DNA of 39,407 nucleotides from Deltaproteobacteria bacterium (GTDB taxonomy: Bacteria > Myxococcota_A > Polyangia > JAAYKL01): contig JAUXHN010000014.1 in NCBI GenBank assembly GCA_030621515.1, forward strand, positions 1 to 39,407, given 5' to 3'. The notes under the pieces were generated by a model. That model was not told the origin of the DNA. It saw only the letters and a program-made list of their open reading frames with translations, and ran no database searches. Of this stretch, positions 12,508 through 30,166 are shown one piece after another; position 1 is the stretch's first letter, and each line of letters begins with the position of its first letter. The translations under genes and the position numbers were made by a program.

Positions 12508-13350
12508 CTATCTGTCCTCAAACAACCTCGAGTAGCTGCCATTCTCCAGATGTCCGCCGATAAGCCCACGGATCGACCGCGCCTGCATCTCCCAGTGCTT
12601 CAGCATCAGCTCGGTCATCTTGCCAATGCCGTACCTTGGAAGAAAAAAAAGCAACATCGCGTAGTTTACGAAACAGTCCTGCAGGCACACCATTTGCGGC
12701 CTGTTCTTCTGCTCGAAATCGATCTTCACCTCCCCCTTTACCAACCCGATGTCCCGCGCCTCCGCACTCGTGCTTTGGCCCCAGCGGATCGAACTCCGGA
12801 TCGTGTCATCGCCGCTGAACTCCTCGCTGCCGAAGAGCATCATCACATCCTCGTTTTCGTACCAAAAAACGGGAAGATAAACCTCGACACCGAACGAACG
12901 GGCAAACTCGCCCACCTTCTCGACACAGCGAGGATGCTGGTACGGATAGCAGCTCATCATCACGTTGTGTCCGCCGTAGAGGTGCTCGACTCCGTTCCGC
13001 AGGCAGAACACCAACGCCCGGGCAAAGATCGCCGGGTTGCAGGTGGCGCACGGGAGGTTAGCCCACAGGCCGATCTTGAACATCTCCAACCGGGACCTTC
13101 GCCAGAGATGCCGATGCAACGCCCGGGCATCGAGAACGACATGAACGAACTCCGTATCCACATACTTCTCCCGCAGCATGTTCAGGCCCGGGAGCATATT
13201 CTCAGGTGAGTTGGCCAACTGATCGTGCCCGCGGTGAGCCATGGTGACGCACGTGAGCAGGTAGACCTTCCTCGCCTGCTGTGCGGCCCGGCTCGCCACC
13301 AACGTGGAGTCCACCCCGCCGGAGTACAGCACGGCCGCCCTATCCAACAT
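12508..13350 (-). CDS. PP-loop ATPase (adenine nucleotide alpha-hydrolase-like; QueC/asparagine-synthase-like N-terminus)
   Basis: AAVLYSGGVDSTLVAS signature; LPCATCNPAIFARAL Cys motif. Confidence 0.8.
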   Translation of the reverse strand: MLDRAAVLYSGGVDSTLVASRAAQQARKVYLLTCVTMAHRGHDQLANSPENMLPGLNMLREKYVDTEFVHVVLDARALHRHLWRRSRLEMFKIGLWANLPCATCNPAIFARALVFCLRNGVEHLYGGHNVMMSCYPYQHPRCVEKVGEFARSFGVEVYLPVFWYENEDVMMLFGSEEFSGDDTIRSSIRWGQSTSAEARDIGLVKGEVKIDFEQKNRPQMVCLQDCFVNYAMLLFFLPRYGIGKMTELMLKHWEMQARSIRGLIGGHLENGSYSRLFEDR

Positions 13351-13654: not shown

Positions 13655-15889
13655 CTAGTCACCGATAAACCACGGCCGCTCGCTCACACCCTTCTTGAGA
13701 GAATACCAGAAGACGACCGGGAGCTCCGGTTGTATCCCCCGAAACTCTGGTTCGCCGTACGTGAAGAAGATGCAGCCGTCGAGATGCCTGGTGAGTACCT
13801 GCCGGTCCTCATGGGTCACCGCGTGGTAACGCCGGGCCACCTCCTCTGCCCGTCGGGTGTCGTCACAGTGCCTGGCCGCCCGACGGACGAAGTCCTCCCT
13901 GAGGGGAAAAGACGCCCACCGTTCCTCGAACACGGGATCGTTGATCGCTCCCACGACCGTGTCGAAGTCCAGCCCGTACCGCTCCCAGATCGAGCTCAAC
14001 AGCTCCGTCTCGAATCCCATCCGGGTGGCCTCCTCCCCCACCGCACCGAGGTACCGATCGATGATCTCGGCCTTCACCTCGTTGCTGCGGCCGTGCAGGT
14101 CGGCAAGGATCAGCCGCACGCTGCCCATTGGGTAGCCGGCGCAGTCGTTGACCGCCTCGACGATGGTCCGTAAGCGCTCGAGAGCGAATCGATCGGCAGT
14201 TCCCAACTCTTCGCGGGCGCCGACCCCCCAGTAGCCCGCGAACTCGAACGCCCCGCGTCGAAGGAGCGCACCCTGCACCAGATCCTCGATCCGGTCGATG
14301 TCCGGCGATCGCGCACGACGAATCTTCTGTGTATTGAACCTGCCGATGATCTCTCTCGCCTTTTCGCCGCTGAGCAGCTTGCGCAGATTCGCAACGTGAA
14401 CCTTGCCCAGTTGGTTGCGCGGCAGATCGGCAAGAAGTTCGAACCGGTCGGGGCACTTGTACGCGGAGAGCCGGTCGAAGACATATCGACGAAGGTCTCG
14501 GGCCAGCCCCGGCTCGTCCGACTCCGGCACACAGGCGGAGACGATCAGTTCCCCCTGTTTCCGATCGCGGATACCGATCGTCGTGCATTCCCGCACGCCG
14601 ACATGGCCGAGCAACACCCCATCGATCTCCTCGGGGTAGATCACATTGCCCTTGCGCTTGATGATGTTCTTGATCCGCCCGACGACCACGAGCTGGCCAT
14701 CCTCGTCCGTATATCCAAGATCGCCGCTCCTGAACCAACCGTCGCAGAGCGCGCCGGGACCAGCCTTCGGATTGCTGTAGCCCTTCATCACACAGTCGCC
14801 GCGAATCAGGATCTCACCGATCCCCAGTCCTCTCCCCTCAAGAGGGGCCGCGCCACCGACCGGTCGGATACGAACCTCGCAACCGAATGGCAGACCCGCA
14901 GTGTCGTAGCGCTTGCGCTCATCCGGCGGAGTCATCGTAGCCCAGGCCGTGGTCTCGGTGAGCCCGTATCCCTGATAGCACGGGAAACCAAACCGCTCCT
15001 CGAACTCGCGCCAGAGCCGCTCGTCCAGTTGAGCCGTACCAACCATGGCGTACTCCACCGAGGAGAGATCCTCCCCGGCGCCCCCTGGAAACAGGTCGAG
15101 CAACGAGGCCATGATCGACGGGGTGAGACTGAGTACGTTCACCGCCCGATCGGCAACGATCTTCCAGAAAAACCGGGCAATGGTGAACCCGTACACCTCA
15201 GCGAGCACGACGTGGGCGCCGCCACGAATGCAGCTCAGCCCGGTCAGCATCGGCGCGTTGATGTGATAGAAGGGGAGAACGCAGAGGAACCGGCGTCCCC
15301 CAGAGTACGGATACACGGAGACAAATGTCGCGGACATCGCGTCCAGGTTTCCGTGGGTCAGCACAATGCCCTTGCTGCTCTGGGTCGTCCCCGAAGTGTA
15401 GATGACAAGTGCCTCGTCCCCCGGGGCGCAGGGGACCACTGCCCACCCTTTGTCCTTGGTAACGCAGTTCTCCACAGCGATGTTGATCCACTGCAAGTCC
15501 ACCGCGTTCCACGCGCAGGCCAAGATCGAGTCGAACGCCTCGACCCGGACCTGTTCATCATGAAACACCAGCGCCGGTCGCGCATCCGCCAGCACCGCAC
15601 GCAACTCGTCGTCGTGGTGCTCTGCCCCGAGCGGCACCATCACGGCCCCCCGAGCGGCGCAGGCAAAGAAGAGCGGATAGAAGAACGGGTTGTTCCTGGT
15701 CAGGTAGGCCACCCGATCGCCACGGCCGATGCCCCGCTCGGCGAGCTGCTTTGCCACGGCGCGAGAGGCGGCCCGAAGGTTGCGATAGGTCAGCGAAACA
15801 TCCCCCCTGATGTCTGTCAGGAAGGTCGCCTCCGGCGTGGCCTCAACGGTAGCTTCAAGGATGTCAATCAGCGGGTTCGCGCCGCTCAT
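13655..15889 (-). CDS. AMP-binding acyl-CoA/acyl-ACP synthetase-like protein with an unassigned C-terminal module of about 240 aa
   Basis: LVIYTSGTTQSSKGIVLTHGNL, YQGYGLTETTAWATM, WFRSGDLGYTDEDGQLVVVGRIKNIIKRKGNVIYPEEID, RNQLGKVHVANLRK; then a long extension ending EPEFRGIQPELPVVFWYSLKKGVSERPWFIGD. Confidence 0.9.
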   Translation of the reverse strand: MSGANPLIDILEATVEATPEATFLTDIRGDVSLTYRNLRAASRAVAKQLAERGIGRGDRVAYLTRNNPFFYPLFFACAARGAVMVPLGAEHHDDELRAVLADARPALVFHDEQVRVEAFDSILACAWNAVDLQWINIAVENCVTKDKGWAVVPCAPGDEALVIYTSGTTQSSKGIVLTHGNLDAMSATFVSVYPYSGGRRFLCVLPFYHINAPMLTGLSCIRGGAHVVLAEVYGFTIARFFWKIVADRAVNVLSLTPSIMASLLDLFPGGAGEDLSSVEYAMVGTAQLDERLWREFEERFGFPCYQGYGLTETTAWATMTPPDERKRYDTAGLPFGCEVRIRPVGGAAPLEGRGLGIGEILIRGDCVMKGYSNPKAGPGALCDGWFRSGDLGYTDEDGQLVVVGRIKNIIKRKGNVIYPEEIDGVLLGHVGVRECTTIGIRDRKQGELIVSACVPESDEPGLARDLRRYVFDRLSAYKCPDRFELLADLPRNQLGKVHVANLRKLLSGEKAREIIGRFNTQKIRRARSPDIDRIEDLVQGALLRRGAFEFAGYWGVGAREELGTADRFALERLRTIVEAVNDCAGYPMGSVRLILADLHGRSNEVKAEIIDRYLGAVGEEATRMGFETELLSSIWERYGLDFDTVVGAINDPVFEERWASFPLREDFVRRAARHCDDTRRAEEVARRYHAVTHEDRQVLTRHLDGCIFFTYGEPEFRGIQPELPVVFWYSLKKGVSERPWFIGD

Positions 15890-16683
15890 GGTGTCGCCTC
15901 TGCTCCCCAGAGCCTGCCCAGATCCACATCGATCAGTCGACTGATCTCATCGACCTCGCGCCGATCGTGCCGTCGCTCGAGTTCGGCCCGGACCGCCGGA
16001 GGCATCTCAACATCCGCTCCCTTGAAGACCACCTCGGTGGTGGGGAACCTGTCCCACTCCACGTTCCGGGAGACCCCGAGAAAGTCGAAGATCTCACCGA
16101 GTACCCGTTGCGGGTGAGCGACCATCCGCTCAAACACGCCGAGGTACAGCTGATCAACGGGAAAGACCCGGCTCCAGTTGTTGATGATCGTCCGGTAGTC
16201 GCCCTGCCTGCAAATTTTGTCGCTGCGGGACGTCTCCAACAGCAGCTCTTCGGTCCAGTCCTCTCGCGGGATCTTCCGGATTACGGAAAGCTCCATCCGA
16301 ATATCGGACCAGTCGCGCGCCACGGGATGGCGCAGCAGCAGAATCAACCGAAGATTGGGCATGATCCGCCTGAGGAACAGGATCTTCCACAGGGGCAAGA
16401 TGCTGTAGGAACCCGTTATCTCACCCTTGCACCGTCCGCCGGCCGCCTCGAAGATCGAGGAGTACTCGGCGAGGGGCCGGGCGAAGTTTTTGTCGAAGTA
16501 CCAGACCGGCTTCTTCACGCACAGGAACAACTCGGGGTGCCGGTAGAGATTGCGGTGCAGCCAGGTGGTGCCGGCCTTGACCGCGCCAATTCCGAGGAAG
16601 TCAGGGAGATAGAGACCGTCGGTACGGCGAACACCGGCGGCGAGAAGCGCCTTCTCCAGGTATCCGCCAACGTGCAGTCTCAA
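15886..16683 (-). CDS. PAPS-dependent sulfotransferase
   Basis: LGIGAVKAGTTWLHRNLYRHPELFL (5'-PSB loop), LRLILLLRHPVARDWSDIRMEL (3'-phosphate binding); likely TTG start overlapping the upstream stop. Confidence 0.88.
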   Translation of the reverse strand: MRLHVGGYLEKALLAAGVRRTDGLYLPDFLGIGAVKAGTTWLHRNLYRHPELFLCVKKPVWYFDKNFARPLAEYSSIFEAAGGRCKGEITGSYSILPLWKILFLRRIMPNLRLILLLRHPVARDWSDIRMELSVIRKIPREDWTEELLLETSRSDKICRQGDYRTIINNWSRVFPVDQLYLGVFERMVAHPQRVLGEIFDFLGVSRNVEWDRFPTTEVVFKGADVEMPPAVRAELERRHDRREVDEISRLIDVDLGRLWGAEATP

Positions 16684-17348
16684 GCCCACTGGATCAACTC
16701 CACGTGCTCCCCGCACGGACCCACCACGAAGCCTACGGTCAACTCCCGTTGGTTCACGCGCACGTGGACCACATCACCGTGGATGCGACCGCCGTGAGCG
16801 CGGAGCCTCTCCATGTCTCCGGTCAGGTCCGTGGTCATGAAGGCGAGAACGACACACCCGGGATCGTCAATGAACTCGAACTCCCTGCGCTCCTCGGCGC
16901 AGGCTTCCAGCAGCAGTCGAACTCGGGACCCGAACAGGTTCTGCTCCATCTCCAACACGCGACGACCGTCCGTTCCCTTCTCTACAACACCGAAACCAAG
17001 TCCGTCGCGCCAGAACCGCTCACCGCGCTCGAGATCGCAGGTGCGCACCGCGATGGTGCTCCGGATACCGTTTGCTGCAACCGCGTCACAGAAGAATGGC
17101 CGGTACACCGAACCGCTCCCGCCGGGGATCCCCACACGACAGTTGATCAGCTCGACTGAGAACGTGCCATCGGCGCCTTGGTAGTACGCGATGTTCTTGC
17201 CCCGACCGCCGTAGAGCGACCCGTCCTCCCTGTCGTCGAAGAGGTCCTCCTGCTCGAACTCCTTCTGATATCCGAACGTCTCGAGGAGCGCCCCCGCCGC
17301 CGCCAAATCAGGCACAGCAATCTGAAGGTGGTCGACTCCCAAGATCAT
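16680..17348 (-). CDS. VOC/glyoxalase-fold protein
   Basis: Two beta-alpha-beta-beta-beta style repeats: MILGVDHLQIAVPDLAAAGALLETFGY and STIAVRTCDLERGERFWRDGLGFGVV; ends GPCGEHVELIQW. Confidence 0.75.
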   Translation of the reverse strand: MILGVDHLQIAVPDLAAAGALLETFGYQKEFEQEDLFDDREDGSLYGGRGKNIAYYQGADGTFSVELINCRVGIPGGSGSVYRPFFCDAVAANGIRSTIAVRTCDLERGERFWRDGLGFGVVEKGTDGRRVLEMEQNLFGSRVRLLLEACAEERREFEFIDDPGCVVLAFMTTDLTGDMERLRAHGGRIHGDVVHVRVNQRELTVGFVVGPCGEHVELIQWA

Positions 17349-17596
17349 GCTCGCTTGGCCTCGATGAAGCCGACCATACTGTCTATCGACTCGAAATTTT
17401 CTTTCTGAAGATCGTCCGGCTCGATGGTGATCGAGAAGCGCGCCTCTAGCTCCACGACGAGTTGGATCAGACCGAACGAATCGACGATGCCCTGTTGCAG
17501 CAGGGAATCCGAATCCTTCACCTCGTCCGACATCTTCGCCTTGAACTCCCTGGTCGTCATTAGGATCTCTCTGATCTCCTCACCAATCATGCGCAT
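17345..17596 (-). CDS. Acyl carrier protein (cassette 1)
   Basis: GIVDSFGLIQLVVELEARFSITIEPDDL: DS-x2-L phosphopantetheine site and ACP helix pattern; start position uncertain. Confidence 0.85.
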   Translation of the reverse strand: MRMIGEEIREILMTTREFKAKMSDEVKDSDSLLQQGIVDSFGLIQLVVELEARFSITIEPDDLQKENFESIDSMVGFIEAKRA

Positions 17597-17621
17597 CCTT
17601 TCATCCGCGGATCCCGGTATG

Positions 17622-19091
17622 TCAAAACTGAAAATACAAAAAGCGATGGTCCGCGATCGCTCCAATCTGAATGTACAGGAAGATCAGCACCAGATAAAAG
17701 ACCATCTGCGTATAGAAGCCCGCACGGCAGATGAAGAGCTGGTCAGCTCGCCGGTACTGCACTGCCTCGTAGAACGCGAGCAGAACCATAATCACGTAAA
17801 GATACCAGTAACGCGCGACGACCAGCGCAAGGGGGTCGAGGTCGGTGAACAGAGCGAAGGTGAATGCCGCGATCTGCTGCAGGTCGTGGGAGCGGAACAG
17901 CAGCATGGCGTAGCAGAAGATGTGGAACATCAACAACACGCGCAGGGTGTTTCCCGCCCAGCGCAGGGGCGTACGACCCGTCTCCGGAACACGGTGCAGG
18001 AGCATCCGAAAACCAACCGTCAACAGCTGCGTGACGTAGATGAAGACCCCGAGCAGCAGGAAGTTGATCGAGGCACCGTGCCAGATGGCGAAGATGAGCC
18101 GGGTGGCCAGCAGCGACAACGTCGCGCCGAGGAGCAGCTGCACCCTGATCCCGCCGAGACGCCGCACCCAGGACAAGGTGGGGATGTAGAAGTAGAGCGG
18201 CATGTAGACGTACTCGGCGATCCACCCGCTGAGGGTGATGTGCCAGCGGCGGAAGAATTCGAAGTAGCTCTTCGAAAAGAACGGCAGGTCGAAGTTGGTG
18301 CTCAGCCGGATACCGAACAGGTGCGAGACGCCGCGAGCCATGTTCGAGTAGCCGGAGAAGTCGCAGTACAGCTGGATGGCGAACGCCCACAGCCCGATCA
18401 ACACCTGCGCGCCCGACGCCTCCGGCGTGTCAAATATCTCGTTGACCACGCGCCCGAGCGAGTCGGCCAGCACGACCTTCTTGAACGCGCCGTACACGAA
18501 GAGGTAGATCCCCTCGCGCAGCTGAACCCGACGCCACTCCTTGACCGCCTGGATCTGAGGCAGCAGATCGCGCGCCTTCTCGATCGGACCGGCGATCAGC
18601 TGGGGGAAGTAGGCCACGTACAGCGAGAAGTCTATCCAGCTTCTGATAGGCTCGAACTTGCCGCGATAGATGTCGATCGTGTAGCTGAGCGTCTGGAATG
18701 TGTAAAACGAGATCCCCAGCGGCAGCACGAGGTTGAGCGTCGTAAACCCCGGATCGAAGCCGAACGCCCCACACAGCGCCACCATGCCCTCGATGAAGAA
18801 ATCGAAGTACTTGAAGAAGCAGAGCAGCGACAGGTTGACGCCGAGGCTCACCAGCAACAGCGCCTTCCTGGTCGACTTCTTCTTCGCGCGGTGAATACCG
18901 AGTCCGCAGTTGTAATCGACGAAGGTGGAGACGAGGATCAGACTGAGGAACCGCCAGTCCCAGGAGCAGTAGAAACCGTAGCTCGCGGCGAGCAGCAACC
19001 GGTTGCGGAAGCGATGTGGCAACGCCCAGTAACAGACGAGGACCAGGCTGACGCAAATGATGAACGCCGGAGAGTGAAAGAGAAAAACCAA
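17622..19091 (-). CDS. MBOAT-family O-acyltransferase (AlgI/DltB-like), cassette 1
   Basis: LVLPLGISFYTFQTLSYTIDIYRGKFEP, YVAYFPQLIAGPIEKARDLLPQ, FFRRWHITLSGWIAEYVYMPL, IFAIWHGASINF, C-terminal FLYFQF. Confidence 0.93.
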   Translation of the reverse strand: MVFLFHSPAFIICVSLVLVCYWALPHRFRNRLLLAASYGFYCSWDWRFLSLILVSTFVDYNCGLGIHRAKKKSTRKALLLVSLGVNLSLLCFFKYFDFFIEGMVALCGAFGFDPGFTTLNLVLPLGISFYTFQTLSYTIDIYRGKFEPIRSWIDFSLYVAYFPQLIAGPIEKARDLLPQIQAVKEWRRVQLREGIYLFVYGAFKKVVLADSLGRVVNEIFDTPEASGAQVLIGLWAFAIQLYCDFSGYSNMARGVSHLFGIRLSTNFDLPFFSKSYFEFFRRWHITLSGWIAEYVYMPLYFYIPTLSWVRRLGGIRVQLLLGATLSLLATRLIFAIWHGASINFLLLGVFIYVTQLLTVGFRMLLHRVPETGRTPLRWAGNTLRVLLMFHIFCYAMLLFRSHDLQQIAAFTFALFTDLDPLALVVARYWYLYVIMVLLAFYEAVQYRRADQLFICRAGFYTQMVFYLVLIFLYIQIGAIADHRFLYFQF

Positions 19092-19099
19092 GCTGCCGC

Positions 19100-20911
19100 C
19101 TACTCGATCTGCTGCTCGCCCAGCTCGGCGTGCAGGGTCCTGGCCACGGCATCCGCGATCAGGCGACTGCCCGCGGATGAGGTGTACTTGAACGGCCTTT
19201 TGTACTCCACGAAATACTCCCTGATCGGCTTCTTTCGCAGAGCTTCCTCGAACACTAGAAGATTGTCGACAAACAGAACGTTTTCATGCGGGGACAATCC
19301 ATGACGAAGGACCTCGACCGAACGGAACGGGAACGACATCACGACGAGCTTTCGTCCCGAACCCGCCACCTTGTCCTGGATCTTCTGGAGCCGCCGAAAG
19401 AACTCCTCATGCTGCCCCTGACTGACCATCCGCAACTCGTTCTCCTTGACTCGCTCCATCCATGTATGGGCCTCCTCGGACCGACCCAGCTCCTCGCAGA
19501 TGAACGCAATCTGCCGCAGCACTTCGCTCGGAACCTCCCCGGAGCTGAGTGTCTCGGCCAGCAAATAGAGATCGAGCGCCTTCTCCTTCGCGCCAATGGC
19601 GAGGTAGCGAGGCGCCAGCCAGGCCGCGATCTCCGACCGGTCGTTCTCGTCCTCTCCACCACCACCTCCTCGCGGCGACGGGAGATCGACAAGGAACCGC
19701 TGCTCCATCTCCTCGAGTAGGGCCCTGGCCGCGGCCCTGTCCCGATTGTGCAATCCCGTACGGGATTGAAAAGCAATCAAACCTCGATAGGCATCCGAAG
19801 AATCTGGAAATCGGTTCTTCCATTCCCGGTAAAAAATTTCCTGGTTGGCACGAAAACGCTGTCGATTGAGATGACGCTCCGCCTCCTCTTGAGATTGCTC
19901 CCCCGCGCCATCCTCCAACGCCGTGTGCCTTGCTTCGCGCTTGAGCCGATTGGACACGTGGCGGCTGAAGCGAAAGGCCTTGTCGAGGGTCTCGTATGCG
20001 CGAGCATCATCCGGATTAAGCTTCATATATCGTCGGCAAGCGACCTCGGCCTCTTTTTGACCGTCAGCGTCCTGACCATAGCAACTACAAGCCTTGAGCA
20101 GGTAGTCCCGATGCGTCGGATCGGACTCTCCCCGCCGACGATAGAGTTCGGCGGCCAGGCGGTACTGCGTAATGCCCTCTTTCAGAAACGAACGGTGTTT
20201 CACGAAATCCTGGCGATCGATGAGGAAACGGCCCAGCATCTCATATCCTGCGGGATCGTCCGGGTGTTCCTCTATATATTGCTCAAACGTTGCCCTGGCC
20301 TGGTCGAGTCGATCCTGCCGGTCGTAGATCCTGGCGAGCGCGAGCTGGTCGCCCGGCACGGATGAGGGCAGGAGCGTTCGCCACTTGCCCCACCAGAGTT
20401 CCAGTTGTGACGACAAATCCTCCTCTAAGATCTGCCCCAACTGGTAGAGCCGGCTGTGCTCGGCGAAGAAGCCGCTGCGGAAGATCGCCGTCTTCTCGCT
20501 CTGTAATTCGGAGATCTCCCCGTCGGTGTCGTGCGATTGGTTGTATTTGATCATGACCACCACTGTGGCCGGATCGTATTCATCGAGGTAATCCTGGATC
20601 GAAACAGACAGCCGATCTATGCCCTGGAGTGCATTACCCCGGTTAACGACATCGAAATCGACCCGGGGGAAAACCACGCTGAGCGCCGCGGCGAGGTGTA
20701 CCGGCCAACCTCGTATCGCCACGCAGCCGCCAAGGCAGAGGACTCGGTAGGCATCTTCGTCACGATCAGCCACTCGGTATTTGATCGTCTGGAGTGTCGA
20801 CCGTGTCAGCTCACCGATGCGAACCGTCACCTCGAGCAGCACGACCACGAGCACCACCCGGAACAGGATGCGCCCCAACCGACGCATCCTCTTTTTAGAG
20901 CAGGTAGTCAC
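19100..20911 (-). CDS. Membrane-anchored SGNH-hydrolase-like protein with internal TPR-type region; catalytic residues appear replaced
   Basis: N-terminal TM; AYRVLCLGGCVAIRGWPVHLAAAL...VVNRGNALQG...YDPATVVVMIKYNQ resembles SGNH blocks; TPR-like middle; LFVDNLLVFEEAL...SSAGSRLIADAVART at the end. Confidence 0.65.
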   Translation of the reverse strand: MTTCSKKRMRRLGRILFRVVLVVVLLEVTVRIGELTRSTLQTIKYRVADRDEDAYRVLCLGGCVAIRGWPVHLAAALSVVFPRVDFDVVNRGNALQGIDRLSVSIQDYLDEYDPATVVVMIKYNQSHDTDGEISELQSEKTAIFRSGFFAEHSRLYQLGQILEEDLSSQLELWWGKWRTLLPSSVPGDQLALARIYDRQDRLDQARATFEQYIEEHPDDPAGYEMLGRFLIDRQDFVKHRSFLKEGITQYRLAAELYRRRGESDPTHRDYLLKACSCYGQDADGQKEAEVACRRYMKLNPDDARAYETLDKAFRFSRHVSNRLKREARHTALEDGAGEQSQEEAERHLNRQRFRANQEIFYREWKNRFPDSSDAYRGLIAFQSRTGLHNRDRAAARALLEEMEQRFLVDLPSPRGGGGGEDENDRSEIAAWLAPRYLAIGAKEKALDLYLLAETLSSGEVPSEVLRQIAFICEELGRSEEAHTWMERVKENELRMVSQGQHEEFFRRLQKIQDKVAGSGRKLVVMSFPFRSVEVLRHGLSPHENVLFVDNLLVFEEALRKKPIREYFVEYKRPFKYTSSAGSRLIADAVARTLHAELGEQQIE

Positions 20912-21139
20912 AGATTTCTATCTATGTTCATTGTGTCTATAGTGCCGCTACCCGAGGAAAAATGGAAGGAAAACACTGTCGCCGCGTTCAACTTCACCGA
21001 AGAATTTCAGTTCTGGTCGGCGAGTGGATGCGCCAGTGAACTGAATAGCCCATATTTTCTTTTTATGGACGTCGTTTTCAGCCACACATTTGATTCTATT
21101 CCTTACCTTTCCATCCATTCATCAAGTAAAATGCATTTC

Positions 21140-22840
21140 ATGAGTCTCAGATCGCCAGTGGTAATTCTGACGCCCCGCTTCACGTCCCTGGCGCGATTCG
21201 GCGGAAAGTCATTTGAGGCCAAGCTATCGCTTGAAACCCGATCGGGCCACCCCGCCTCTCTGCCCAACCTGGATAGCTTGATCAACTCGCCGCTGGCCAA
21301 TCCTCGTCTCGGACGGGGTCTCAAAACGGCCAATCCACTGGCCGGATACGTACTGGAGACGTTCCTCAAACTCAACGGCTACCCCACACGCACCGTGTTC
21401 GACTGGGACGACGACGGACCGCTGGAGCAAGCCCTGAGCGTCGATCCGATGGCGGTGCTACTGAGCACCACCTACATCACCGACCCCGGGATACTCGCCG
21501 CCTGCCTCGGACAGCTGCGAAAGCTCGTCGGAAATCTGCCGATCGTAGTCGGGGGGCCCGGCGTGCTCAAGCAACGCATGTTGATGGGACGGAACGCCAA
21601 GCGAGCGCGGGCGGCGGCCCTGGCCTCCTTCGGGGTGGATGAACAGGCCGATCTCCTGTTCTCCACCCGCCCGGACCCCAGAACGACCGACGCGGTGTAC
21701 GTGACCTCCACCCACGGGTTGCACACCCTACTGGATCTACTGCCAGCCATCGAAGGTGGAGGGAACGAAGAGCTGCGCCGGGTGCCGAATCTGGTGCTTC
21801 ACGATGATAATTCCGGCTGGTACGCCACCGAGGAGCGTGGCGAACCGGTCGATATCGACCGGGATTACACCCGCTGGAAGTTGGTCGACGAGATGCCGAC
21901 GGTGATCCCGATGCGCACCTCCCAGGGCTGTCCTCACCGCTGCCGCTTCTGCGACTTCCACATGCTCCATCAGGGTGTGAGTCGCCGGAGCATGACTTCG
22001 ATCATCGCCGAGCTGACCGAGGCCAATACCCGGGGATCCGGCCTGATTAACTTCGTCGATGAAGACACGTTCCTCGATGCCACGAGGATCGACGAGCTGA
22101 CCCAGGGCATCATGGAGGCCGATCTCGACATCGCCTGGGGCGGCTTTTTTCGAGTGGAGCGGATTGACGAGGGCAACATCGAGGCCATCGTCGAGTCGGG
22201 ATGCCGGTTCGGCTTCTGTGGAATCGAGAGCGCCGACCCGGGACAGCTAAAACGGATGAACCGAACTTGGGACCGGGCTCGAGCCGAGCGGGGCATCGCT
22301 CTGGCCACGAGCGCCGGGATCGAGCTGGAGCTGACCCTGGTGCTCGGCTTCCCCGGAGAGACCGAGCAGTCCATCGCCAACACCGCCGAGTTCCTTCGGA
22401 GCCTTCCCACCGGCGGCCAGGCCTTTCCCACCTGGGAGATCTACCCCTTCCTGCTCTCCCCCAACAGTCCGGCCGACGCCCCGTGGTTCCGACGTCGCTA
22501 CAACCTGCAGGGCCGCCACCATCGCTGGTCCCACAACACCATGAGTTACCGGGAGGTGGTCGAGCACTGGACCCCGGTGCTGTTCAACCAGGTCCCCGCG
22601 ATGCCGTACTGGCACCATACCTCGGACGCCATCCACTGGTGGGAGCCCGAGCGACGGGATCGGGCCTTCGCGGCGCGGCAGAATCTCACCGCGGCGTTCC
22701 TCTCCGGCGCCCCGGACGGGACGTTGCAGGAGCGGTTCGCTTCCCTCCACCAGATTTTCCTCGATGAAGAGCGTACGGCGCCTCCCTGGAACGAGCTGCT
22801 CGCGGACAAGGAGCGTCAGCCCGGAGGAACCACCCGATGA
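21140..22840 (+). CDS. Cobalamin-binding-type radical SAM protein
   Basis: N-terminal Rossmann-like region, then PMRTSQGCPHRCRFCDFHMLHQ (CxxxCxxC), GFCGIESADPGQLKRMNR, LTLVLGFPGETEQSIANT. ATG at 21131 is an alternative start. Confidence 0.88.
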   Translation: MSLRSPVVILTPRFTSLARFGGKSFEAKLSLETRSGHPASLPNLDSLINSPLANPRLGRGLKTANPLAGYVLETFLKLNGYPTRTVFDWDDDGPLEQALSVDPMAVLLSTTYITDPGILAACLGQLRKLVGNLPIVVGGPGVLKQRMLMGRNAKRARAAALASFGVDEQADLLFSTRPDPRTTDAVYVTSTHGLHTLLDLLPAIEGGGNEELRRVPNLVLHDDNSGWYATEERGEPVDIDRDYTRWKLVDEMPTVIPMRTSQGCPHRCRFCDFHMLHQGVSRRSMTSIIAELTEANTRGSGLINFVDEDTFLDATRIDELTQGIMEADLDIAWGGFFRVERIDEGNIEAIVESGCRFGFCGIESADPGQLKRMNRTWDRARAERGIALATSAGIELELTLVLGFPGETEQSIANTAEFLRSLPTGGQAFPTWEIYPFLLSPNSPADAPWFRRRYNLQGRHHRWSHNTMSYREVVEHWTPVLFNQVPAMPYWHHTSDAIHWWEPERRDRAFAARQNLTAAFLSGAPDGTLQERFASLHQIFLDEERTAPPWNELLADKERQPGGTTR

Positions 22841-24567
22841 GGGCGCCGTCGATGAGCGAAGCTCCGCCTTTCGATACCGTAGTGGACTGCCTGCGGTACT
22901 GGGCCGAGCACGAACATGAGGCGTCGGCCTGCGTGTTCCTGCGAGGCGATGCCGACGGCTCCGCCGACTCGCTCTCCTTCGCCGACCTCGATCGTCGGGC
23001 CAGAGAGATCGCAGCGACCCTCCAGGCAAAAGTGGAGCCCGGCGACAGGGTTCTGTTGACCTTATCCTCCAACCGCAACATGGTGCAGGAGTTCTACGGT
23101 TGCCTCTACGCCGGCACCATCCCGGTGCTCTGCCCGATGCCACAACCCAACCGTCCGCAGGGCCTGGTCGCGGGGATCGTCCGCGATTGCGCCCCGGCCG
23201 CCCTGATCGCCACGGCCGAAGCGATCCCGCTGCTGCGCCGGCGCCTGGCCGACGCCCTGCCCGACGCCGCGGTGCACTGGATCCCGGCAGACACGCTCGG
23301 AGAGGCCGATGGGCAGGACTGGGAACCTCCGGCACTCACCCGCAACTCGATCTCCCACCTGCAGTACACCTCGGGCTCCACCTCCCGCCCGCGCGGGGTG
23401 ATGATCAGCCACGGCAACCTGATCCACAACGCCGCGGTCCTCTCGAAAGCGTTTGAGTGGACTCGCCAGACGGTCCCGGTCTCCTGGCTTCCCCTGCACC
23501 ACGACATGGGGCTGGTGGGCTTCCTGCTCGGTCCGCTATGTTACGGGCTGACTACCCACCTGATCCCGCCGCTGGATTTCGTGCAGAGCCCCATCTGCTG
23601 GTTGCGCGCTATCTCCGATTACAGAGGCACCTACACCTCGGCCCCCAACTTCGCCTACGATCTCGCGGTGAGGCGGATCTCGGACGATCAGCGGCGAGAG
23701 CTCGACCTCTCCAGCTGGATCTCCGCAGCCAACGGCTCTGAGCCGGTGCGCCCCGAGACGATCGTTCGCTTCACGGAGGCCTTCGCCCCATGCGGGCTCC
23801 GCCCCGAGGCGATGTTTCCCTGCTACGGCCTGGCCGAGGCCACGCTGATTGTCTCCGGTGGGCCGAACAAGGAACAACCCGTCATATTATCGGTGAATCG
23901 GGAGGCGCTCGCCGATGGGATCATCAAGCCGGTAGAGCCCCACAGCGAAGGGTCGACGGAGATCGCCTCCAGCGGACAGGCGCTGGCCGGACAGAACCCC
24001 CGAGTGGTGGATCCCTCCAGCGGAAAGCGGTTGGGGGATCTCGAGCTTGGGGAGATCTGGGTCGGTGGCGCCAGCGTGGCAGCCGGCTACTGGCAAAAAC
24101 CCCTGGAGAACCGAGAGAGCTTCGGCGCCCGGATTCCGGGTGATCCTCTGAGTTACCTCCGGACCGGCGACCTGGGGTTCCTCCGCAACGGGCAACTGTT
24201 CGTCACCGGTCGGCTCAAGGACCTGATCATCATCCAGGGCCGCAACCACTACCCTCAGGATATCGAGATCACGGTGGAAGATAGCGACCCTGCCCTGCGC
24301 CCCGACTGCGGCGCCGCGTTCTCCATCGACGAGGACGGCGAGGAGCGACTCGTCGTGGTTCAGGAGGTGAAGAGATCGGCCATCGGAAAGCTGGACCCGG
24401 TCGAGGTCACCGACAGAGCGCGGCAGGCGGTGGCGGAACGGCACGGGATCACCCTGCGCGAGCTCGTGCTGATCAGGACCGGAACGCTACCCAAGACATC
24501 CAGCGGCAAGCCACGCAGGCAGGCCTGCCGCCAGGCGTACATCGACAAGAAATATCATCGCCTTTAG
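22837..24567 (+). CDS. Fatty acyl-AMP ligase (FAAL-like), cassette 2
   Basis: LQYTSGSTSRPRGVMISHGNLIHN, SWLPLHHDMGLVGFLLGPL, MFPCYGLAEATLIVSGG, YLRTGDLGFLRNGQLFVTGRLKDLIIIQGRNHYPQDIE; ATGA overlap with the radical SAM gene. Confidence 0.92.
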   Translation: MRAPSMSEAPPFDTVVDCLRYWAEHEHEASACVFLRGDADGSADSLSFADLDRRAREIAATLQAKVEPGDRVLLTLSSNRNMVQEFYGCLYAGTIPVLCPMPQPNRPQGLVAGIVRDCAPAALIATAEAIPLLRRRLADALPDAAVHWIPADTLGEADGQDWEPPALTRNSISHLQYTSGSTSRPRGVMISHGNLIHNAAVLSKAFEWTRQTVPVSWLPLHHDMGLVGFLLGPLCYGLTTHLIPPLDFVQSPICWLRAISDYRGTYTSAPNFAYDLAVRRISDDQRRELDLSSWISAANGSEPVRPETIVRFTEAFAPCGLRPEAMFPCYGLAEATLIVSGGPNKEQPVILSVNREALADGIIKPVEPHSEGSTEIASSGQALAGQNPRVVDPSSGKRLGDLELGEIWVGGASVAAGYWQKPLENRESFGARIPGDPLSYLRTGDLGFLRNGQLFVTGRLKDLIIIQGRNHYPQDIEITVEDSDPALRPDCGAAFSIDEDGEERLVVVQEVKRSAIGKLDPVEVTDRARQAVAERHGITLRELVLIRTGTLPKTSSGKPRRQACRQAYIDKKYHRL

Positions 24568-24619: not shown

Positions 24620-24862
24620 GTGCAAACCGAGCAAGAGATCATCGACTGGTTGCGCCAGCGAGTGGCCAGCAAACTCGATGTCAGCGCCGCTGAGATCGGC
24701 GCCGACGTGCCGTTCACCCGGCTGGGCATCGACTCCACCGAGGCGGTGGTGATCACCGGTGAGCTCCAGGAGTTGCTGGAGATCAGGGTGCCTCCCACCG
24801 CATTGTGGGACACTCCCACGATCAAGGAACTGGCCGAGTACCTGCTGAGCAAGTCCGGCTAG
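24620..24862 (+). CDS. Acyl carrier protein (cassette 2)
   Basis: FTRLGIDSTEAVVITGELQELL phosphopantetheine site; 80 aa; GTG start after AGAGGGGA. Confidence 0.93.
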   Translation: MQTEQEIIDWLRQRVASKLDVSAAEIGADVPFTRLGIDSTEAVVITGELQELLEIRVPPTALWDTPTIKELAEYLLSKSG

Positions 24863-26274
24863 AACTGAAAGTAGATGAACTGCTCGGTGGTGTCCACCGC
24901 CCCGTAGAGTATGCCCAGGGTCAGCAGACACCACAGGACGGCCCGGACTGGGGCGGGCATCGACACGTCTTCACGACCTCGCAACTTCAGCCGGGTGGCG
25001 ATCACGCCCAGACCGATCAGGGCGATCATCCCCGCCAGCAAGTATAGCTGGGGACCGAAGCTCATCTTGCCGCCGACGATCCCACCGAGGACCTGCCCCA
25101 GGTGATCCATCGAAGTGCAGCGAAACAGCAGGATCAGGCCGCCGAGGTACAGGGAGTTCAAGACGACGGCCGCCGGATCGGACCACCGGCTCCGGCCGAA
25201 CCAGGGCCGATTGCGCGGGCGCCGGGTGACAATGAAACTACCTTCGTAGAAGGCGATGCCCATCCCGGCGAACAGACCGAGCAGGACGAACATCCAGGTA
25301 GCCCCGTGCCACAGCCCCATCAGCGACAGCACCGTGACCAGGTTGAGCAGCTTGCGCAGCGGCCCAGGCCGGCGCCGACCCATTATCGCGGTGAACAGGT
25401 AGTCGCGAAACCAGTGGCTCAGGGAGATGTGCCAGCGGTTCCAGAAGTCCACCGGGTTGCGAGCCAGGGTGGGCCAGTTGAAGTTCTCCCGCAACCGTAT
25501 GCCGATCATCCTCGCCAGTCCGATAGCGATGTCGGTGTAGCCGCTGAAGTCCATGTAGATCTGCAGGCCGAAGGCGGCGGTAGCCAGGATCAATGCCGGG
25601 GAGCCGGCCTGGCCCGGGTCGACGAAGATCTGATCGACGAACAGGCCCAGGCGGTCGGCGATCACCACCTTTTTGAACAGGCCCCACAGGGCCCGCTGGA
25701 AGCCGATTTCCCGGTCGGCGCGGGTGATATCCAGCTCACGCTGCAGCTGGGGCAACAGGCTGCCGGCACGTTCGATGGGGCCGGCAAGCAACTGGGGGAA
25801 GAAGGCCACGTACAGGGAGAATCCCAACAGATCCCGCGTGGGCTTCACCTTCTCCTGGTAAACGTCAATGGAGTAGGACATGGTCTGGAATGTGTAAAAT
25901 GAGATGCCCAGCGGCGCCATCCAGTGAAACTGCTCGGCGTTGCCCCAGCCCAGCGTGTCGGCCAGCAGGTTCCAGTTCTCGATGCCGAAATCGGCATACT
26001 TGAAGAAGACCAGCAACCCCAGGTTCACCGCGATGCTCAAGGCAAGCCATCGCTTGCCGTGGCCAGTCTCCACGGCGGCGGCAATGCGCTGGGCGGCGAA
26101 GAAGTCCACCAGGGTGGAGGTGAGCAACAGCAGGCAGTACCAGGGGTTGCCGAAACCGTAAAAGACGTAGGAGGCCACCACCAGCATCACCCGCCGCGGA
26201 CGGAACGGGAGCAACCTGTGCAGGACCAGCACCACGGCGAAGAAAATAGCGAAGGTGATCGTGTTGAAGCTCAT
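24859..26274 (-). CDS. MBOAT-family O-acyltransferase (AlgI/DltB-like), cassette 2
   Basis: MAPLGISFYTFQTMSYSIDVYQEKVKP, YVAFFPQLLAGPIERAGSLLPQ, FWNRWHISLSHWFRDYLF, MGLWHGATWMF, C-terminal FIYFQF. Confidence 0.95.
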   Translation of the reverse strand: MSFNTITFAIFFAVVLVLHRLLPFRPRRVMLVVASYVFYGFGNPWYCLLLLTSTLVDFFAAQRIAAAVETGHGKRWLALSIAVNLGLLVFFKYADFGIENWNLLADTLGWGNAEQFHWMAPLGISFYTFQTMSYSIDVYQEKVKPTRDLLGFSLYVAFFPQLLAGPIERAGSLLPQLQRELDITRADREIGFQRALWGLFKKVVIADRLGLFVDQIFVDPGQAGSPALILATAAFGLQIYMDFSGYTDIAIGLARMIGIRLRENFNWPTLARNPVDFWNRWHISLSHWFRDYLFTAIMGRRRPGPLRKLLNLVTVLSLMGLWHGATWMFVLLGLFAGMGIAFYEGSFIVTRRPRNRPWFGRSRWSDPAAVVLNSLYLGGLILLFRCTSMDHLGQVLGGIVGGKMSFGPQLYLLAGMIALIGLGVIATRLKLRGREDVSMPAPVRAVLWCLLTLGILYGAVDTTEQFIYFQF

Positions 26275-27374
26275 CGCCCGAGCTCCTCGTCGATCACCTC
26301 GAGCAGCCGCCGGCCGTAGGCCTCGTGGGCCGTATCGTCGAAGTGTCCGGGGGTGAGGAACCGCTCGGCTTCGACGGACAGATGAAGATCGTGGACCGGG
26401 ATGGACGAGTCATCGAGGACCTCGCCGGCCTCGTCGATGAATCGCTGGACGTTGGCCAGGGAAGCCCGGTCTATCACGCCGGTGTTCACCGGGCACCAGA
26501 TCCACAGAACGCGGGTACCGGTCCCAGCGAGTCGCTCCCGCAGCCGGGGAAGAAAGGCACGGAAGCTCTCCAACCGCTCCCGCAGTCCGCTGTCGTTGAG
26601 CCCTCGTTGCTCGCCCCGCCGCTTTCCCGCCTCCTTCAGCTCGACGAGCGCAGCTCGCTGATCGATCCAGAAGATCGACCCCTCGTCGCTCGCGGCGCTG
26701 TCGAGCCGCTGCCGTGGCCGACGCAGCTTGCCCAGCACCCAGCGGTGCCACCGCATCGACATCTGCTCGGCCGTGAGGTCGAGGACGGCGAACCGAGAAC
26801 GAGCCAGGTGGCTGTGGAGTTGAACGAAGCGCCTGACCATGCCCTCGGTGGTCAGGCTCCCGGCGAAGGCGGCGTCGGGCAGCCATCTCCAGATGGCCGG
26901 ATCACCGGCCAGGAGCGGGATATCGGAGAAGGGGAAATCCAGGTTCATCTGCGGCAAGGGCTCGAAGTTGGTGGCTGCCACGGCAAAGACCACCAGGTCG
27001 GCCCCGCGTTCGACGGCCTTCATCGACAGCAGCTCCATCTCGCTGGCGCGGATCCCCGAGCAGGCCCAGTTCTCCAGGTGTGCCGGCGGCTCCCGCGTCT
27101 CGAGTCCTCGCCGGACGTAGGCCGGAGCTATTTCGGAGGAGTCGGCGATCTCCGGAGCAACCCCCTGTGAGTTGGTGATCAGCACCACCACGGGCGCTTC
27201 GTCCCCGTACTCCACATCGATGTACTCTGGCCAGCCCCGGTGGAAGACCTGGTTGCGGATCACCTCGTCGGCCCCGGGTGTCCGGCCGTAGGGCAAGACG
27301 CGCCAGGCCGTGACCTCGAGCAGAATCAGCATCACGGCGAGCCAGGAGAACGGGCTGCCGGTGATCTTTTTCAT
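26271..27374 (-). CDS. SGNH-fold (AlgJ/DltD-like) membrane-anchored protein, MBOAT partner
   Basis: N-terminal TM; VVVLITNSQGVAPE (nucleophile block), VFAVAATNF, terminal HFDDTAHEAYGRRLLEVI (DxxH); ATGA overlaps with both neighbours. Confidence 0.75.
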   Translation of the reverse strand: MKKITGSPFSWLAVMLILLEVTAWRVLPYGRTPGADEVIRNQVFHRGWPEYIDVEYGDEAPVVVLITNSQGVAPEIADSSEIAPAYVRRGLETREPPAHLENWACSGIRASEMELLSMKAVERGADLVVFAVAATNFEPLPQMNLDFPFSDIPLLAGDPAIWRWLPDAAFAGSLTTEGMVRRFVQLHSHLARSRFAVLDLTAEQMSMRWHRWVLGKLRRPRQRLDSAASDEGSIFWIDQRAALVELKEAGKRRGEQRGLNDSGLRERLESFRAFLPRLRERLAGTGTRVLWIWCPVNTGVIDRASLANVQRFIDEAGEVLDDSSIPVHDLHLSVEAERFLTPGHFDDTAHEAYGRRLLEVIDEELGR

Positions 27375-30121
27375 CGGTCCCGCCCGCCGCCTGCGCCCTC
27401 CCGCGAGTCGATGTAGCCCAGGGCGCGCAACCGCTTTTGCAGATTGCGGTAGAAGTCCTGTGTTTCTTGCGACGGTTGACCGGCCGGCACCGTGTGCTGA
27501 TCGATCCACTCCTCGAGGCGAACGAGCAGCTCCTCGCCCCGATCTCCGCTGCCGGCGAGGTTGACGAGTTCTCCGGGGTCAGCTTGCAGGTCGAACAGCT
27601 CCCGCAGACCCTCGCGGGGATTCAGAATTGCCTTGCGCCGCTCGCTGACCAGCGTGAACTGATTGGGCTTGTTTTTCGCTCCAGCGCGATCGCGACCATT
27701 GCCGGCGTATAACCACGTACGGGCGACCACCTCGCCCCGGGGGCGAGGAGTCCTGCCGGCCGAAGCCTCGCGCACGATATCGTTCACCCAGAAAGTAGAT
27801 GCGGCGCCGAGCACCCGACCGGACTTCTTTGAGCGGGGGTTGTAGATGATCAACGGCACATGCACCAGCTCGTCGTGCACCGTAGCGCCGTGGCCGATCC
27901 GAGTCCGTTCCTTGAACTCCTCGCCGTGGTCGGAGAACAGGATGACCAGGGTATTCTCGGCCAGGCCCAGGGTGTCGAGCCGATCGAGCAGCTGGCCCAC
28001 GTACCGGTCGGTGTGGAACAGCTCGGCCTGGTGCAACGCGACGAGGCACTCTACCTCCGTGGGAGTCAAGCTGTCCTCGATCCGACGGATCTCGTCCACG
28101 TCGAGGTTGTTCACCACTCTCCCACAGCGCTCCGGGTCGTACCCGAACCGGCGCTCCACCTCGGATGGAGGCGCGTAGTTCAGGTGCGGATCCAAGTAGT
28201 GCACCCAGAGAAAGAACCGGTCGTCCCGGTGCTGCCCAAGCCATCGGGACACCTCGTTGGTAAGCTGGGGCGCGGTCACGCTGTACCGGCCCTTGCTGAT
28301 GTTGGTCACCTCTTGGAAGCCGCGCATCAGGTTTCCTGGGGCGGTTTGCTCGTTGTCCGTCATGTTGAGGGCGTAGTGATCGGTGAGCGCGGCCGTGGTG
28401 AAACCCCGCGCTGTCATCTCCTCGCCGAGGAACGATTGCTTCTCGTAGTGAGCCAGCACGTGTTCCATGGGCTCGTTGGCGATCAGCGACCCGGACATGA
28501 TCGCGGTGAATGCGGGCAGGGTAACCGGCGCCGGGCTGTAGGCGTTCTCGAACAGGATGCTCTTCTCGGCGTAGGCGCAGATATTGGGAGTGGTGTCTCT
28601 CTCGTTGCCGTAACACGGCAGGTGATCGGCACGGACCGTGTCGATGGTGAGCAGCAGTACGTTGCAATCGGGGCACGCCAGACCGGATAAGGCCTCTTTA
28701 ACGGACAACGAGTCGTCCTTCACCAAATAGCCGAGCGCCTCGAGCCGCGCGCGCTGCTCGGCGTCAACATCGACCTTGTCGGGGCGCTCCGCCGCCGGCC
28801 TGGCCGCCCAGTCCAGGCGGGCGGCCTTTAACTCGTCGAGCCGAGCCTCGAGGCGATCCTGCTCCTCGGGGTACGCCGCAGCGAGGTCGTCCTGCTCGCC
28901 CGGGTCGCGCTCGAGGTCGAACAGTTGCTGACCGTTCTCCCGGCGGCGGTTGTAGTACTTCCACTTGCCCAGGTGCAGGCTCTCTGGTAGCTCGTTCTCC
29001 ACCGCGTCCCGCTGGGCCACCGACTCCTCGATCGAACTCTCTCCGTCCAGGGCGAAGCCGAGCAGGCTCTGGCCGTCGATCCCTCGGGCCGGCGGCAGAT
29101 CGGCCGCCTCGAGCAGGGTGGGAAGGATGTCGATGCCGCGGGAGATACCGCGTACTCTCTTGCCGGCCAGGACTTTCCCCGGCAGCTTGACGATCAACGG
29201 CACGCGCAGCAGCTCGTCGTACAGGGTGTGCGAGTGCCACCCCATCCAGCCGTGCTCGCCGAACTCCTCGCCGTGGTCCGAAGTGAAGACGATCAGGGTG
29301 TCGTCGTACAGGCCGAGCTTCTGGAGCTGCGACACCAGATTGCCGAACGCCTCGTCTACCGAGTGGATCTCCGCGCCGTAGGTGGCGATGATGTGGCGGC
29401 GATCATCGTCGTCGATCTCGAGCTGGCCGTGGTTGATCTTGTTGAGCAGATCCTTGTCGATGTAGTCCGGCAGCTCGCCGTCGTAGCGGTGGCCGATGGC
29501 GTCGAGATGGCGCTGCTCTGCCAGGTAGGGATGGTGCGGCTCGTAGGTGTGGAGGAAAAGGAAGAACTGCTCGTCCTGATGCTGTTCGAGCCAGTCGTTG
29601 GCCTGCTCGACCGTCTTGCGGAAGCGAGCGCGGATCCCCCGCTTGAACACCGTGTTGTACTCGTCGAACCCCTGGCTGAAGCCCCAGAGCCGATCGACCT
29701 GTCCGGAGTCGCTGAAGCCCGCGGTGCGGTAGCCGCCGGCCTTGAAGAGCTCGGCCATGGTGACCATCTCTTCGGGCAACGGCACCTTGCGAGAGAAGAA
29801 CGCCCCGTGGTGGGATGGGATCAGCGAGGTGAAGATGGAGGCGTGGGACGGCTCGGTGGACGGGGCCTGGGCCAGGCTGGTCTCGAACAGGACCGCGTCC
29901 CGCGCGAAGCGGTCGACGAACGGCGAGGTGGGGTGCTCCCACCCGTAGCAACCGAGGTGATCGGCCCGCAGTGTATCGATGGAAATCAAGATCACGTTGG
30001 CGCCCTTCCACGGCCAGGGTGCCCCGGACTGTTCGCGACCCACGAGTCGGAGCAGGGCGAACAGCACCATCAGGCCACACGCGGCGGCGATCACAACAGC
30101 GACTATTGTTTTCCTTCTCAT
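27371..30121 (-). CDS. Tandem fusion of two sulfatase-fold (alkaline phosphatase superfamily) domains with N-terminal TM anchor
   Basis: Domain 1 NVILISIDTLRADHLGCYGWEHPTSP...STEPSHASIFTS...FTSDHGEEFGEHG; domain 2 NVLLLTIDTVRADHLPCYGNERDTTP...VTLPAFTAIMSG...LFSDHGEEFKERT. Confidence 0.9.
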   Translation of the reverse strand: MRRKTIVAVVIAAACGLMVLFALLRLVGREQSGAPWPWKGANVILISIDTLRADHLGCYGWEHPTSPFVDRFARDAVLFETSLAQAPSTEPSHASIFTSLIPSHHGAFFSRKVPLPEEMVTMAELFKAGGYRTAGFSDSGQVDRLWGFSQGFDEYNTVFKRGIRARFRKTVEQANDWLEQHQDEQFFLFLHTYEPHHPYLAEQRHLDAIGHRYDGELPDYIDKDLLNKINHGQLEIDDDDRRHIIATYGAEIHSVDEAFGNLVSQLQKLGLYDDTLIVFTSDHGEEFGEHGWMGWHSHTLYDELLRVPLIVKLPGKVLAGKRVRGISRGIDILPTLLEAADLPPARGIDGQSLLGFALDGESSIEESVAQRDAVENELPESLHLGKWKYYNRRRENGQQLFDLERDPGEQDDLAAAYPEEQDRLEARLDELKAARLDWAARPAAERPDKVDVDAEQRARLEALGYLVKDDSLSVKEALSGLACPDCNVLLLTIDTVRADHLPCYGNERDTTPNICAYAEKSILFENAYSPAPVTLPAFTAIMSGSLIANEPMEHVLAHYEKQSFLGEEMTARGFTTAALTDHYALNMTDNEQTAPGNLMRGFQEVTNISKGRYSVTAPQLTNEVSRWLGQHRDDRFFLWVHYLDPHLNYAPPSEVERRFGYDPERCGRVVNNLDVDEIRRIEDSLTPTEVECLVALHQAELFHTDRYVGQLLDRLDTLGLAENTLVILFSDHGEEFKERTRIGHGATVHDELVHVPLIIYNPRSKKSGRVLGAASTFWVNDIVREASAGRTPRPRGEVVARTWLYAGNGRDRAGAKNKPNQFTLVSERRKAILNPREGLRELFDLQADPGELVNLAGSGDRGEELLVRLEEWIDQHTVPAGQPSQETQDFYRNLQKRLRALGYIDSREGAGGGRDR

Positions 30122-30166
30122 GATAAGCTGCAATTCATACGATATTCCCGTGTATTTATAAAGCGA

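Follow-up and report, generated by a model that had tools for sequence, protein, structure and literature searches.

A domain with a predicted isocyanide-synthase-like fold fused to an AMP-ligase in a carrier protein and MBOAT operon of a Deltaproteobacteria bacterium

The fungal enzyme CrmA combines an isocyanide synthase (ICS) with adenylation, thiolation and transferase domains in one enzyme (PMC9381783). ICS-NRPS hybrids have been reported in fungi only, the forms known from bacteria being single-domain ICS and ICS-dioxygenase proteins (PMC5974471). The isocyanide-synthase fold need not yield isonitriles, as illustrated by Dit1 (PMC7345447), whose product is probably N-formyl-tyrosine.

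The window analyzed here is a stretch of 39,407 nt from a Deltaproteobacteria bacterium (GCA_030621515.1, contig JAUXHN010000014.1, positions 1-39,407, forward strand). Similarly to CrmA, it combines an ICS-type domain, in this case by predicted fold only, with an adenylating domain in one chain, and the operon supplies the carrier and acyltransferase functions (Table 1). However, the system is bacterial, the ICS-like domain is C-terminal (the reverse of the order in CrmA) and has no ICS signature, and the carrier and the transferase are separate proteins, the latter being an MBOAT. As in the Dlt system (DltA, DltC and DltB), a single operon of the window encodes a ligase, a carrier protein and an MBOAT similar to DltB, but the ligase is of the FadD/oxalyl-CoA ligase type and carries a further domain, and the operon has additional sulfotransferase and VOC genes.

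Table 1. Features of the fused protein and of its surroundings in the window
Feature	Position	Strand	Basis
AMP-ligase with C-terminal isocyanide-synthase-like domain (predicted), 744 aa	13655..15889	-	ORF call, Pfam, fused homologues
AMP-binding and AMP-binding_C ligase domains, aa 11-496	14402..15859	-	Pfam, motif positions
C-terminal domain, aa 506-744, predicted class-I aaRS/isocyanide-synthase-like fold	13658..14374	-	AF2, Foldseek
YWGxGxR, aa 553-559, loop after strand 1, at the place of the KSPN loop	14213..14233	-	alignments
DxHxRxN, aa 597-603, after strand 2, at the place of SDGRVFxD	14081..14101	-	alignments
FxTY, aa 708-711, at the place of RLSIHP	13757..13768	-	alignments
PWF, aa 739-741, near the C-terminus, at the place of PWH; model confidence low here	13667..13675	-	alignments, AF2
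Sulfotransferase (Sulfotransfer_3), start overlaps the fused ligase, same operon	15886..16716	-	Pfam
Glyoxalase/VOC protein, same operon	16680..17348	-	Pfam
Acyl carrier protein (PP-binding), DSF attachment site, same operon	17345..17665	-	Pfam, motif
MBOAT acyltransferase, DltB-like, same operon	17622..19091	-	Pfam, NCBIfam
TPR protein adjoining, before the MBOAT	19100..20911	-	Pfam, TPR only
Fatty-acyl-AMP-ligase-like gene; in G018 and G192, 42% homologues lie close to the fused ligase	22837..24567	+	homology

The frame of the fused protein has no break. Its N-terminal part is a complete AMP-ligase of the ANL superfamily, with the Pfam domains AMP-binding (aa 11-371, E 4e-72) and AMP-binding_C (aa 421-496, E 4e-12) and intact motifs, namely the P-loop TSGTT at aa 165, YGLTE at aa 308, GRIK at aa 404 and the A10 lysine motif GKVHV at aa 495. 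Among solved structures, FadD13 and oxalate-CoA ligase are the closest ligases. The stretch PFYHINAP, at the place of the amino-acid-binding aspartate of peptide synthetases, would make an acid without a free alpha-amine a plausible substrate.

The ligase models of NCBIfam stop at about aa 498-511, and the extension of about 239 aa begins at about aa 506. The first-pass annotation had proposed a module of about 240 aa without assignable family after the ligase end. This module is real, and leaving it unassigned was fair, as aa 506-744 gave no match in Pfam, NCBIfam or PDB sequences by phmmer and profile searches. Its placement past the ligase also holds, but the string quoted for it starts only at about aa 552, after a conserved linker that already belongs to the unassigned part. 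Matches of the extension to SPOP and a rubber oxygenase were due to chance (E 0.17-0.7), and there was no hit to a known domain that regularly occurs in fusion with acyl-CoA synthetases. The GC content by codon position is the same in both halves (0.65/0.46/0.78 in the ligase, 0.66/0.45/0.80 in the extension), indicating that the extension is coding in the frame of the ligase, and a chance read-through is ruled out, as unrelated contigs carry the same fusion at 33-35% identity.

Among 59 relatives, a single homologue of the extension was found, full-length and 35% identical (G018, whose contig matches JAHFDS010000004.1 of a Myxococcales MAG), and a search of the phylum added a full-length one in G192 and a shortened one in G221. 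The two full-length fused homologues (33-35% identity) belong to the same Myxococcota class as the window, and the whole proteins are 36-37% identical to that of the window. In G192, contig C78 presumably continues C357, as their ends are near-identical. No further homologues were identified in a class search (318 genomes, apparently the entire class set) or in other draws, and a viral scan gave no match for the domain. The contig scan across genomes relied on two narrow peptide patterns only, by which members in other phyla could be missed. A search with the whole gene at the DNA level matched short ligase motifs only, plasmid matches to the domain were due to chance (E 0.05), and a match in G377 (L007) is a P-type ATPase-like ORF, judged a chance match from its translation. 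The fused domain is therefore rare. The stand-alone homologues next to AMP-ligases that the first-pass annotation had suggested looking for did not turn up in the relatives, phylum or class searches, the domain being always fused. In all four proteins it follows an orthologous ligase, suggesting from these sequences that the fusion is probably old.

An AlphaFold2 model of the domain (one run, 3 sequences) reached a pLDDT of 82.7 and a pTM of 0.83. In a Foldseek comparison of this model with the PDB (350,542 chains), isocyanide synthases fill ranks 1-4 (E 3e-7 to 2e-5, TM 0.60-0.63), the best being PIsnA (9dh4, E 3e-7, TM 0.63), followed by 9dhm (twice) and PvcA (3e59, E 2e-5). Since the PDB contains no more than three distinct isocyanide synthase sequences, the whole family present there tops the list. 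The Rossmann-like enzyme fold anticipated in the first-pass annotation, which had also proposed this structural check, is thus borne out by a confident alpha/beta model whose predicted overall fold comes closest to that of the isocyanide synthases. The fold is taken from this one model; a model built from the G018 sequence alone failed (pLDDT 41). That the domain is an unrelated Rossmann-type domain, its likeness to isocyanide synthases being a product of a model built from three sequences, is quite improbable: there is no significant sequence match, but the top four chains are exactly isocyanide synthases, and the register of the sequences is consistent with this.

Next in the Foldseek list are class-I TyrRS/TrpRS and cyclodipeptide synthases (CDPS), and TyrRS and one CDPS were the matches in a viral structure library; the isocyanide-synthase fold is itself of the class-I aminoacyl-tRNA-synthetase-like Rossmann type. 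These neighbours, and the presence of ligase and carrier in the same operon, could be taken to indicate an aminoacyl-tRNA-dependent transferase like the CDPS, joining a tRNA-borne aminoacyl group to the ligase-activated acyl group. We consider this possibility small, as isocyanide synthases outrank CDPS and TyrRS by three to four orders in E-value. Moreover, CDPS carry their nucleophile serine in a motif after the first strand, whereas all three full-length proteins have the YWGxGxR loop and no serine at this place. Neither the domain nor its homologues match the CDPS family in Pfam (PF16715), a CDPS family search gave no match anywhere, and no HIGH/KMSKS was seen in the domain. The likeness to CDPS and class-Ic TyrRS/TrpRS is one of class-I aaRS-like fold, with weaker structural matches.

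For comparison at the sequence level, isocyanide synthases were gathered from myxobacteria, plasmids and the PDB, and 12 of them were included in a profile alignment. The domain and its homologues show no match to PF05141 (DIT1_PvcA) at E up to 10, and a PF05141 family search of G000 and G018 gave none; the domain does not belong to this family as an isocyanide synthase and lies below Pfam detection. Hhalign gave a probability of 2-5% between the domain profile and isocyanide synthases, with a score of 25.7 that was reached by one of 150 column shuffles with the four-sequence profile and by three of 150 with the three-sequence one. The merged alignment nevertheless extends from the first strand as far as PW(H/F), with the elements in their expected register. 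Sequence alone is no proof of homology to isocyanide synthases, but structure and register together make it probable.

The domain shares with PvcA, PIsnA and IsnA the predicted fold, the order of elements, an aspartate after strand 2, a tyrosine in the next helix and PW near the C-terminus, and retains 7 of the 57 positions invariant in isocyanide synthases. However, the KSPN lysine, the second lysine, RLSIHP and the TPWH histidine are all absent, being replaced by YWGxGxR, FxTYxxP and PWF, while SDGRVFxD is replaced by DxHxRxN. The strand region that follows PWH at the C-terminus of isocyanide synthases is also lacking, and, unlike these enzymes, the domain is fused C-terminally to a ligase. 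These losses bear on the possibility of a genuine isocyanide (or N-formyl) synthase that condenses an amino acid with ribulose-5-phosphate, the ligase activating the resulting acid as in CrmA. Such an enzyme would have the closest fold, and the function set of CrmA (ICS-like, adenylation, carrier and acyltransferase) is present, here split over an operon (PMC9381783). Yet with the signature residues gone, isonitrile formation by the domain is not supported and is very unlikely, and no PvcB-type dioxygenase was seen in the window or near the homologues.

The domain has conserved residues of its own. At 33-35% identity, the polar residues R559, D597, H599, R601, N603, S632, T710 and Y711 are invariant and lie in loops after strands, and in total three homologues show no variation at about 30 charged, polar or aromatic positions, which cluster at strand ends. 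Active sites of Rossmann enzymes lie at strand ends. This argues against a module without catalytic activity that is built on a decayed synthase fold and serves in docking or regulation, of the carrier protein for instance. Such a module would fit the loss of the known catalytic residues and the situation in G221, a member of another class, where the ligase is retained but the domain lacks its middle part together with the motifs, making the domain dispensable there; we nevertheless regard it as unlikely.

By its predicted fold, the domain can be placed near the isocyanide synthases as a diverged variant, a placement that relies on one model and four sequences. We tentatively favor, with somewhat less than even confidence, a strongly diverged relative of the PvcA/IsnA/Dit1 fold acting as an enzyme with a rebuilt active site, which would prepare or modify the acid for the fused ligase. 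Its chemistry would probably be related to that of isocyanide synthases but different, and the fold relatives would point to a free amino acid or amine that is not yet activated, or to an aminoacyl group, as its substrate, rather than to the adenylated or ACP-bound substrate that the first-pass annotation had taken the fusion to suggest. The domain may make or tailor a small acid, probably an amino acid or an N-modified derivative, which the ligase of the same chain would adenylate and load onto the acyl carrier protein of the operon, the likely acceptor of the ligase product. The DltB-like MBOAT would then pass the acyl group to an envelope or exported acceptor, as the co-occurrence of carrier and MBOAT suggests that a modified acyl group is loaded and transferred. 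It is a more doubtful proposition that this represents a new enzyme family with an isocyanide-synthase fold and a different catalytic center (YWGxGxR, DxHxRxN), fused to a ligase and placing an acyl group onto the myxobacterial cell surface via carrier and MBOAT, as a bacterial split counterpart of CrmA. Few reactions have been characterized on this fold. If the favored reading is true, a group that is linked to a ligase and has kept the fold but replaced its conserved residues would imply yet another type of reaction, and would offer a means of finding hidden biosynthetic loci that escape sequence profiles.

The genes for the MBOAT, the carrier, the VOC protein, the sulfotransferase and the fused ligase overlap at their ends and therefore form one operon. 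The MBOAT matches LTA_dltB with an E-value of 1e-40, under the curated cut-off, and an SGNH/DltD-like role for the adjoining TPR protein is a guess. With the VOC gene as query, the same operon was not found in 192 relatives and turned up in the window only. None of the operon partners points to a particular substrate. A PP-loop ATPase-like gene (12508-13350; QueC/MnmA-type, weak) lies directly downstream of the fused ligase. A radical SAM protein nearest to the PhpK P-methyltransferase subfamily (E 3e-53, under cut-off) is encoded at 20531-22840 and adjoins the fatty-acyl-AMP-ligase-like gene. The locus at 24859-30133 mirrors the first MBOAT operon and comprises a second DltB-like MBOAT, an overlapping gene without assignment (26271-27509) and a double sulfatase (27371-30133).

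The loci of the homologues hold KASIII-like, PKS (in G018) or OleC-like ligase genes near the fused ligase. The fused protein is thus part of biosynthetic loci that differ in their remaining content. A KASIII-like pair is present in G192 (L013:343-5998), and the OleC-like ligases of G192 (L013:343-5998) and G018 (L011:15315-17381) score above the PRK09274 cut-off, making beta-lactone or olefin-type clusters possible. Condensation-like proteins without Pfam match, related to each other as judged by eye, are also encoded near the fused ligase in G018 (L011:13062-14405) and G221 (L014:10679-12112).

Some unusual architectures were observed among other isocyanide synthases. One frame (L016:640-2286) combines a TetR-type DNA-binding N-terminus with a canonical isocyanide synthase (Pfam TetR_N and DIT1_PvcA). 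Two isocyanide synthase genes of G051:C190 (L015:25-2307 and L018:1333-2424) lie within about 4 kb, the first having two cyclic-nucleotide-binding domains ahead of the synthase domain. Finally, a 512-aa PvcA-like protein of G055 (L017:1081-2616) matches only the first half of PF05141 and has a long, different C-terminal part, and by its sequence is another divergent branch.
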